From: Wigglesworthia glossinidia
GTDB lineage: Bacteria > Pseudomonadota > Gammaproteobacteria > Enterobacterales > Enterobacteriaceae
Assembly (NCBI GenBank): GCA_030827005.1
Contig: JAVBJL010000009.1
Span: 103,084 to 167,083, forward strand
Direction: 5' to 3'
Length of the DNA: 64,000 nucleotides
Below the pieces are notes generated by a model. The model searched no databases, was not told the origin of the DNA, and worked only from the letters and a program-made list of their open reading frames with translations. A program made the translations under genes and the position numbers. Within the stretch, counting starts at the first letter, position 1; each line of letters begins with the position of its first letter. This document shows positions 30,372 to 33,342 of the stretch, piece after piece.

Positions 30372-31295
30372 ATGCATATACCGGTTATGCTAAATGAAGT
30401 TATTCATCTACTTAATATTACTCCTAATGGAATATATATTGATGCAACTTTTGGAGAAGGAGGTCATGCAAAAAAAATTTTATCTAAACTAAACTCTAAA
30501 GGAAAATTAATAATTATCGATCGAGACCCACATTCGATAAAAATAGCAAAAAATATTAAAGATCCAAGATTAACTATTATTCATGGTAACTTTTCATCAA
30601 TAACAAAATATGCTAAAAAATATGAAATATTCGGAAACATTGATGGAATTTTATTTGATTTTGGAGTGTCCTCTTCACAAATTGATAACAAAAATAGAGG
30701 GTTTTCTTTTTTAAAAGATGGACCTTTAGATATGCGAATGAATAATAAATTTGGAATATCCGCATCGGAATGGATAAATAATGCAAAATTTTCAGATATT
30801 TATTTTATATTAAAAAATTTTGGAGAAGAACGTTACGCAAAAAAAATAGCTAGTGCTATTATAAGAAATAAAAAAAAAAAAATAATTACTAAAACTAGTG
30901 AACTGTCTGATATAATATGTCGAACATGTGGAATTTATTATCAAAGAAATAAACATCCAGCACGTAGAAGCTTTCAAGCCATTAGAATTCATATTAACAG
31001 TGAATTACAAGAAATAAAAAATACTTTAAAACAAATATTGCCTTTATTAAAATCCAGAGGAAGAGCGATTTTTATTAGTTTTCATTCTCTTGAAGATCGA
31101 ATGATAAAAAATTTTATCAAAAAAAATAACAAAATAGAAATATATCCATACGATTTACCTATTTTAGAAAAAAAGATAGAAAAATTTTTTAAAAAAAAAT
31201 TGAGTTTTTTTAAAAAGTTTAAACCGTCTCAAAAAGAGATATCAAACAACCTTCGCTCTAAAAGTGCAATTTTACGTTGTATAGAAAAGATTTAA
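30372..31295 (+). CDS. rsmH: 16S rRNA (cytosine1402-N4)-methyltransferase
   Basis: HIPVMLNEVI, IDATFGEGGHAKKIL, RSFQAIRIHINSEL; first gene of the dcw cluster. Confidence 0.96.
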   Translation: MHIPVMLNEVIHLLNITPNGIYIDATFGEGGHAKKILSKLNSKGKLIIIDRDPHSIKIAKNIKDPRLTIIHGNFSSITKYAKKYEIFGNIDGILFDFGVSSSQIDNKNRGFSFLKDGPLDMRMNNKFGISASEWINNAKFSDIYFILKNFGEERYAKKIASAIIRNKKKKIITKTSELSDIICRTCGIYYQRNKHPARRSFQAIRIHINSELQEIKNTLKQILPLLKSRGRAIFISFHSLEDRMIKNFIKKNNKIEIYPYDLPILEKKIEKFFKKKLSFFKKFKPSQKEISNNLRSKSAILRCIEKI

Positions 31296-31299
31296 AATT

Positions 31300-31622
31300 A
31301 TGATATATAAAAAAAAAGTCTTACAAAGATTATTTTACAAGATACATTAAATTATTCAAAATTATCAATACTCATAATATTGTTAATAGTTATTACGTCT
31401 ATTTTAATAATCTACGTTAAATATCAAACTCGCTATTCTATTTATGAACGCGAACGTATTTTATTTGAAAAAGATGTATTAGAAAATGAATGGAGTCATT
31501 TAATATTAGAGCAATATACATTAAGTAATAATCGTCGAATTGAATTGTTTGCCCTAAAAACTTTAAATATGCATCATATAAATTTATTAGAAGAAAATAT
31601 CATAATTCATCATATGAAATAA
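31300..31622 (+). CDS. ftsL: Cell division protein FtsL, apparent frameshift at an A9 tract (31309-31317); ORF track shows only the downstream 31380-31622 part
   Basis: ATG at 31300 reads MIYKKKVLQRLFYKIH* in one frame. The next frame reads KKSLTKIILQDTLNYSKLSILIILLIVITSILIIYVKYQTRYSIYERERILFEKDVLENEWSHLILEQYTLSNNRRIELFALKTLNMHHINLLEENIIIH, which is FtsL-like. rsmH-ftsL-ftsI order conserved. Confidence 0.82.
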
Positions 31623-31650: not shown

Positions 31651-33342
31651 ATGAAAATTCGTTTAATCAAATGGCGTTTTTTAATTTTATTAAGCCTTGT
31701 TTTAATTTCTTTATTTATCTTAATTATACGAATTACTTATTTGCAAATTATTAATCCAAATGATTTAATTCGAGAAAGTAACATGAGATCTCTACGCATA
31801 GAATCTATACCCGTTTCCAGAGGTATGATTTTAGATAGGAATAAACGTCCGCTTGCAGTAAGCGTGCCAGTACATGCTATCTGGGTGGATCCTAAAGAAT
31901 TAAATGATCATGGAGGAATAATTAAAAATATATATTGGGAAGCTTTATCGGACACATTATCTATTTCCTTTGATCAACTATTTCAACGTGTTAATAATAA
32001 TCCAAATAGTCGTTTTGTATATTTAGCACGTCAAGTAAATTCCGAAATTGGAGAATATATCAAGCAATTAAATTTGCCCGGAATACATTTAAAAAAAGAA
32101 TCAAAAAGATACTATCCTATTGGACAAGCAGCAGCTCATATCATTGGTATAACGAATATTGATAGTCAAGGCATTGAAGGTCTTGAAAAAAGCTTTGATC
32201 CGTGGCTATCCGGTATGCCTGGAAAAAGAAAAATTAGAAAAGATAGATTTGGAAAAATTATTGAACATATTTTATTAAAAAAAATTCAGCAATCTAAAGA
32301 TTTAATATTAAGTATTGATGGAAATTTGCAAACTTTAGTATATAAAAAATTAAAACAATCAGTAGAACTAAATAAAGCAGAATCAGGAACTGCAATTTTA
32401 GTTAATGTAAATACCGGTGAAATATTAGCTATGACAAATATTCCATCATACAATCCTAATAATCTTGTTAAAACTAATAAAAGTATGATGCGTAATAGAG
32501 CAATTACAGACATCTTTGAACCAGGATCTATTGTTAAACCAATAGTAATTATTTCTGCTTTACAGCAAGGTATTATCAAAGAAAATAGTATCATTGATAC
32601 GCGACCTTATATTTTAAATGGATACCGAATCAAAGATGTAGTAGATTACGATTCTTTAACAGCAGAAGGAATTTTAAAAAAGTCTAGCAATGTTGGAGTA
32701 TCTAAAATTGCATTATCTATGCCGATAGAATCTCTTTTAGAGACATATCAATTATTTGGTTTAGATAGATCTACTAAATTAGGATTAATCGGAGAAAGTA
32801 ATGGATTTTTTCCAAAAAATAAAAAATGGAGTAATATTGAAAAAGCTACGTTTTCTTACGGATATGGTTTAATGGTTACTCCATTACAATTAGCTCAAGT
32901 ATATGCAACAATAGGAAGTATGGGTTTTATGTACCCATTGTCTATTATAAAAATGAATCAACCAATTATCGGCAAGCAAATATTTTCACCAATAATAATA
33001 CGAAAAGTAATCCGTATGATGGAAAGTGTTGCATTACCAGGAGGCAGCGGTGTTCAAGCAGCGGTAAACGGATACAGAGTGGCTGTAAAAACTGGTACTG
33101 CTAAAAAAGTTGGATCTGATGGAGTTTACATTAATAAATATATTGCATGTGCTGCGGGAATCGCTCCAGTAGAACATCCTAGATTTGCATTAGTTGTGGT
33201 AATTAATGATCCTAAAGGTGGAAAATATTACGGAGGATCTGTATCTGCACCTTTGTTTAGTGAAATTATGAATATTGTGCTACATCAAATGAATGTTCTT
33301 CCAGATAAGCTTCCAGAAAATACTTTAATAGTAAATAGTTAA
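31651..33342 (+). CDS. ftsI: Peptidoglycan D,D-transpeptidase FtsI (PBP3)
   Basis: SRGMILDRNKRPLAVSVPV, EPGSIVKP, SSNVGVS, KTGTAKK. Confidence 0.97.
   Translation: MKIRLIKWRFLILLSLVLISLFILIIRITYLQIINPNDLIRESNMRSLRIESIPVSRGMILDRNKRPLAVSVPVHAIWVDPKELNDHGGIIKNIYWEALSDTLSISFDQLFQRVNNNPNSRFVYLARQVNSEIGEYIKQLNLPGIHLKKESKRYYPIGQAAAHIIGITNIDSQGIEGLEKSFDPWLSGMPGKRKIRKDRFGKIIEHILLKKIQQSKDLILSIDGNLQTLVYKKLKQSVELNKAESGTAILVNVNTGEILAMTNIPSYNPNNLVKTNKSMMRNRAITDIFEPGSIVKPIVIISALQQGIIKENSIIDTRPYILNGYRIKDVVDYDSLTAEGILKKSSNVGVSKIALSMPIESLLETYQLFGLDRSTKLGLIGESNGFFPKNKKWSNIEKATFSYGYGLMVTPLQLAQVYATIGSMGFMYPLSIIKMNQPIIGKQIFSPIIIRKVIRMMESVALPGGSGVQAAVNGYRVAVKTGTAKKVGSDGVYINKYIACAAGIAPVEHPRFALVVVINDPKGGKYYGGSVSAPLFSEIMNIVLHQMNVLPDKLPENTLIVNS

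Follow-up and report, generated by a model that had tools for sequence, protein, structure and literature searches.

In E. coli dnaX, translating ribosomes undergo a -1 frameshift at A_AAA_AAG. In Thermus thermophilus dnaX, an A9 run gives mRNAs of variable A length, where the unslipped template specifies the long product and slippage a second functional product (PMC1088944). In the insect endosymbionts Buchnera and Blochmannia, Tamas et al. (2008) described, as cited in later articles (PMC5009743, PMC3017870), frameshifts at poly(A) tracts that are rescued by RNA polymerase slippage; a review places the rescued fraction at 12–50% of transcripts (PMC5009743). Polymerase slippage on runs is insertion-dominated in both Buchnera and E. 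coli; in Buchnera, 151 of 157 insertions lay in runs, versus 16 of 57 deletions (PMC5574713).

The ftsL gene of Wigglesworthia glossinidia described here belongs to this known endosymbiont kind. As far as the cited articles describe the Buchnera and Blochmannia cases, ftsL resembles them in its AT-rich insect endosymbiont host (a property that the first-pass annotation had read from the letters, and that was borne out), in having a single indel within an A9–A11 run of an otherwise intact gene, in the normal selection on that gene, and in being one of several genes so affected in a genome, among them cell-wall genes. The likeness extends to dnaX, dnaG and pth of Blochmannia vafer, essential genes that are broken at homopolymers with no rate acceleration, and to the occurrence there of both shared and independent homopolymer frameshifts between species (PMC3017870). 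Compared with the Buchnera and Blochmannia cases as cited, ftsL differs in its genus, in being known here from DNA alone, in being broken in two species at one tract but in opposite phases, and in the position of the run at codons 3–6, just past the start. It shares an A9 run with T. thermophilus dnaX but, unlike that gene, would need slippage for any functional product. Like E. coli dnaX it has an A heptamer that is slippery and correctly phased, but it lacks a stimulatory stem-loop or internal Shine-Dalgarno sequence (fold z +0.39). In the searchable literature we found no report of an ftsL or mrdA frameshift in Wigglesworthia. What is new is thus the occurrence in this genus, the two opposite phases of a single tract, a link to the FtsL residue Leu24, and a genus-wide break in mrdA.

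The frame break in ftsL

The window, the whole 64,000-nucleotide stretch that was analysed, is C10:103084-167083 of a 719,035-base W. glossinidia genome. Judging from its match, this genome appears to be the draft from Glossina palpalis gambiensis, which was sequenced by Illumina from pooled bacteriomes to a contig coverage of >1400x; the reported Wigglesworthia genomes measure 0.698 Mb (G. brevipalpis), 0.719 Mb (G. morsitans) and 0.719 Mb (the G. palpalis gambiensis draft) (PMC10868223). We refer to the window genome as Wgp and to two genomes of the same genus, which by their matches appear to be those of the G. morsitans and G. brevipalpis symbionts, as Wgm and Wgb, respectively. Wgm and Wgb are both collinear with the window, at nucleotide identities of 80–83% and 72–80%, respectively.

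As expected in the dcw cluster, the FtsL sequence lies between rsmH and ftsI, all on the forward strand. The intact rsmH (mraW; 30372..31295; Pfam Methyltransf_5, E 1.3e-101) ends with its stop codon at 31293-31295. Four nucleotides later, the ATG at 31300, at the conserved position, opens a short frame of 16 codons (31300..31350) encoding MIYKKKVLQRLFYKIH and ending with a stop at 31348-31350; 3/3 Wigglesworthia genomes retain an ATG at the rsmH stop or overlapping it. The FtsL body occupies another frame (31311..31622), which is closed upstream by a TAA at 31308-31310, remains open for 103 codons until the TAA at 31620-31622, and encodes the end of the cytoplasmic part, the transmembrane (TM) helix and the coiled coil. 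It matches Pfam FtsL (PF04999) with 91.3 bits (E 4.1e-26) over profile positions 1–96 of 97. With an estimated ~9% stop codons per codon at the base composition of the window, a frame of 103 codons would stay open by chance with a probability of ~1e-4, so this frame is more than a chance occurrence. The two frames meet at a tract of nine A's at 31309-31317 (C10:134,392-134,400), and the downstream ftsI (31651..33342; Pfam Transpeptidase, E 1.6e-77) is intact. Thus, the single open frame running from a normal start codon that is expected of FtsL is not found in Wgp. The first-pass annotation had placed the split, the ATG with its short frame and the stop closing the body frame at these positions, and it was correct to the base. 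Its proposal that ten A's would restore FtsL also holds, but not as the sole route, since the same downstream frame is reached by the loss of two A's or by a -1 ribosomal shift on A_AAA_AAA. The frame-restored protein is predicted to begin with MIYKKKSLTK..., and its predicted peptides include IILQDTLNYSK, DVLENEWSHLILEQYTLSNNR and, with a missed cleavage, SLTKIILQDTLNYSK, which spans the A tract.

Homopolymers are the likeliest sites of length errors, most of the breaks found in the survey described below point in the undercall direction, and DNA from pooled bacteriomes could carry mixed alleles (PMC10868223). An assembly error, or a minority or mixed allele hiding a true tract that is in frame, is nevertheless improbable, given the Illumina data with the reported >1400x coverage (PMC10868223). 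Among ~53 shared genes in the window, only ftsL is frame-broken, and 38 other A or T runs of at least 9 lie in intact, in-frame genes, which argues that run lengths in the assembly are not generally wrong. The other division genes of the window have no frame break, in line with the earlier reading of ftsI through ftsZ as apparently intact. A second, separately sequenced genome, Wgm, is moreover broken at the same tract. These results show that the frame break in ftsL is real and local. The rsmH gene itself contains an A13 run (30870-30882) that is in frame in Wgp and corresponds to A7 and A6 in the two relatives; mixed transcripts would be expected from it if RNA polymerase slips.

The ftsL tract has ten A's in both of the other genomes. 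The Wgb gene reads ATG-ACT-AAT-A10 and is in frame, with the product MTNKKKINQIIIEDVL. The Wgm gene reads ATG-ATA-AAA-AC-A10 and is out of frame, yielding MIKTKKKSYKNNFTRYIKLF before a stop codon, while its FtsL body, NLTKIILQDILNYSKLS..., lies in a separate frame that is closed upstream by TGA TAA. The distance from the ATG to the conserved block of the body is 15 nt in Wgb, 17 nt in Wgp and 19 nt in Wgm, so that all three phases occur across the three genomes. To come into frame, Wgp ftsL would have to gain one A (or lose two), whereas Wgm ftsL would have to lose one base (or gain two). Thus, a second species repeats the break at the DNA level, but in the opposite phase. Among 20 other reduced-genome relatives, 18 carry an ATG or GTG that is in frame and precedes the FtsL TM helix, a stop close to the FtsL C-terminus being present in three of the 18, and the remaining two are degraded; the 5′ phase break is therefore peculiar to Wgp and Wgm in this sample.

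Selection on the FtsL body and its candidate starts

Comparison of the FtsL body between Wgp and Wgm (101 codons) gave a dN of 0.115, a dS of 0.611 and a dN/dS of 0.19, so that among 187 intact genes it ranked at the 53rd percentile by dN/dS and at the 40th by dN. Neither genome has an internal stop in the body. The FtsL body, which the first-pass annotation had called conserved, is thus under ordinary purifying selection, like intact genes. These features, together with the retention of FtsB in the window genome, speak against ftsL being a recent pseudogene in cells that divide with little or no FtsL. Such a loss would have parallels, as ftsL has no match in 24 of 150 family genomes (the 20 that are listed measure 0.2–1.4 Mb) and a few other relatives carry internal ftsL stops or breaks. 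In E. coli, however, FtsL is required to recruit and activate FtsWI, and its Leu24 helps to recruit FtsW (PMC7733951). We consider the pseudogene explanation doubtful, to about the same degree as an assembly error.

The equivalent of Leu24, which is residue 24 in E. coli-type sequences, is encoded at 31320..31322 and is conserved in 32 of 35 aligned FtsL sequences; the motif [KR]-x-[SN]-L-x-x-[IV]-I-x-x-D is preserved right up to the A tract. In E. coli FtsL, the L24K/I28K substitutions abolish function, and deletion of residues 1–30 stops the recruitment of FtsW/FtsI (PMC7733951). Between the upstream stop and this Leu codon, Wgp has only the codons AAA AAA AGT, with no known start among them, and ATG, GTG, TTG, CTG and ATH are absent from this interval in both Wgp and Wgm. 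If the Leu24 equivalent is translated, the A tract must therefore be crossed, because no possible in-frame start precedes that residue.

Two starts further downstream in the body frame have to be weighed against this. The first conventional one is the TTG at 31380..31382, which is the first ATG, GTG or TTG of the body frame. The first-pass annotation had judged it a poor start, rightly so: it lies inside the TM helix, its use would remove the entire cytoplasmic part, and a deletion of that part blocks division in E. coli (PMC7733951). Moreover, the codon is TTA in Wgm, where the frame has no ATG, GTG or TTG until near the C-terminus. Initiation at this TTG is hardly credible.

The other is a non-canonical ATT at 31329 or 31332, inside the body, whose use would make the phase of the ATG irrelevant in all three species. 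The three genomes do occupy all three phases, as such irrelevance would predict, and the second of these ATT positions (31332) is common to all of them. ATT start codons are very rare, and no Shine-Dalgarno sequence is present here. The ATG by the rsmH stop has been kept in every Wigglesworthia genome, and the Leu24 equivalent, Thr and Lys that precede the ATT show no amino-acid change between Wgp and Wgm (0 changes in ~6.7 nonsynonymous sites, for which the chance is ~0.03 at the synonymous divergence of the gene). We thus regard an ATT start as very unlikely.

Frame breaks at other A and T runs

We surveyed the whole contig C10 (245,029 bp) against 253 kb of Wgm, with ~213 shared genes, and 80 kb of Wgb plus mrdA. 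A non-overlapping gene set was used, because a comparison of all open reading frames was swamped by antisense frames. The survey is pairwise between species, and could overlook a gene with the same break in every species; mrdA was caught only through an internal ATG in Wgp. The broken genes, which amount to ~2–3% of those surveyed, were ftsL (A9), dapF (A9), amiC (A9), recD (A11), lipB (A11) and mrdA (T9) in Wgp; ftsL (A10), amiC (A10), lpxK (A11), engB (A10), pssA (A11) and mrdA (T9) in Wgm; and rlmE (A9), hemC (A9) and mrdA (T9) in Wgb. All of the junctions lie at A9–A11 or T9 runs. In 212 kb, there are 146 A runs and 16 T runs of at least 9, which make up <1% of coding sequence, and coding regions here show no depletion of long runs. 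With mrdA counted once, 11 of the 13 breaks would be mended by adding one base (binomial p ~0.02), the exceptions being Wgm ftsL and Wgm amiC. A strictly one-way bias, with every break needing an added base, is ruled out by Wgm amiC, which needs one base fewer, as Wgm ftsL does. The 11:2 bias fits rescue by RNA polymerase, -1 ribosomal shifting, or deletion-biased mutation without any rescue.

Apart from ftsL, the genes broken at A9–A11 in Wgp or Wgm are usually intact in the other species, and they include a number that are essential in E. coli or have a role in the cell envelope. The Wgb rlmE and the 5′ end of hemC, on the reverse strand, are broken at A9 and intact in the relatives compared. 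At the 5′ end of Wgm ruvX/yqgF (L072:11190-11330), no in-frame ATG, GTG or TTG is present near the expected start, possibly reflecting an ATT/ATA start or another 5′ break. A 787-aa gene that is split near C10:237,500 was set aside: a scaffold gap of N's occupies C10:237,499-237,744, flanked by a duplicated stretch containing A9, and the split looks like an assembly join.

The mrdA gene, encoding PBP2, lies outside the window at C10:~181,670 and is frame-broken at the same T9 in 3/3 Wigglesworthia genomes. The T9 sits in an invariant 19-mer, ATATCTTTTTTTTTATTAT. The N-terminus, MKDKLNYYKQYF..., is in one frame and the body, FFFI(M/I)LLTGILIFNLYYLQI, in another; the two would be joined by one added T or by a -1 shift on U_UUU_UUA. 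As a candidate for a conserved and possibly programmed event, mrdA surpasses ftsL. The conserved length of its T9 is not in itself special, as 4 of 38 other runs also have identical lengths in the three species.

Slippage as a route to full-length FtsL

With a single indel in a homopolymer of at least 9 in an otherwise intact gene, and with purifying selection downstream like that on intact genes, Wgp ftsL is probably functional. We favour, as somewhat better than an even bet, the explanation that the ftsL indel in the A tract is fixed and that FtsL is rescued by slippage, mainly of RNA polymerase. The indel in the 5′ A tract would put the start out of frame with the FtsL body; in a fraction of expression events the tract would be copied or read with one extra A, chiefly through RNA polymerase slipping backwards on A9 to give A10 mRNA, and full-length FtsL would result. 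Its output may be lowered yet sufficient, which would leave the body under normal selection while the phase at the DNA level is free to drift. This explanation is supported by the retention of FtsB and the unbroken state of the other division genes in the window, and by the confinement of the breaks to A9–A11 and T9 runs, 11 of 13 needing an added base.

The same protein, MIYKKKSLTK..., could be made from a nine-A mRNA by the ribosome, through a -1 shift on A_AAA_AAA_G or sliding on iterated AAA. The heptamer A_AAA_AAA_G is a perfect -1 slippery sequence in the right phase, E. coli ribosomes do slide on iterated AAA (PMC4363877), and 11 of 13 breaks need a change that a -1 shift mimics. However, ftsL has neither a downstream structure (fold z = +0.39) nor a Shine-Dalgarno-like stimulator upstream of the tract, and a cell-free E. 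coli system showed little sliding on A9 or A10 but robust sliding on A11 (PMC4363877). The shift is also not conserved, as Wgb is in frame and Wgm needs the opposite one. Ribosomal frameshifting is therefore unlikely, although it is the least unlikely of the single rivals. Several considerations favour polymerase slippage over it: slippage can serve both the Wgp and the Wgm phases, ftsL shows no frameshift stimulator, sliding of E. coli ribosomes is slight on runs of nine or ten A's, and transcript rescue of 12–50% is documented for Buchnera and Blochmannia (PMC5009743). The earlier proposal of rescue by RNA polymerase slippage thus stands in that frame-restoring slippage is the best explanation; that slippage occurs, that the polymerase rather than the ribosome slips, how efficiently it does so, and that full-length FtsL is rescued are what we infer.

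Several points weigh against slippage rescue. In Wigglesworthia, Baranov et al. (2005) found A/T runs to be equally dense in coding and noncoding DNA, which they read as no slippage (PMC1088944), and Traverse and Ochman found no restored frame in Buchnera (PMC5574713). Equal run density could equally mean that slippage is tolerated. A tract of nine A's is close to the shortest on which slippage occurs, Wgm ftsL would have to lose one base (or gain two), a change in the direction that is less favoured, and deletion-biased replication alone could yield the 11:2 bias. A bolder, and rather unlikely, version is that the phase of the ftsL A tract is selectively neutral in Wigglesworthia and slippage in both directions routine; ftsL and mrdA would then be expressed largely through slippage, which would hold the cell-wall machineries for septation and elongation at low, fixed doses in a slow-dividing symbiont.

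Rescue of ftsL by slippage can be tested at once from the A counts in deposited reads, both DNA (SRR21669497/SRR21669498) and RNA-seq of tsetse bacteriomes or flies (SRR3956925-7, from G. morsitans bacteriomes, and PRJNA668823). For annotation, the ftsL case shows that essential genes of such genomes can be misjudged by pseudogene callers and by procedures relying on open reading frames only. The case also challenges the earlier inference of no slippage in Wigglesworthia (PMC1088944), and probably extends slippage-dependent expression to this obligate partner for tsetse reproduction and to a core division gene.
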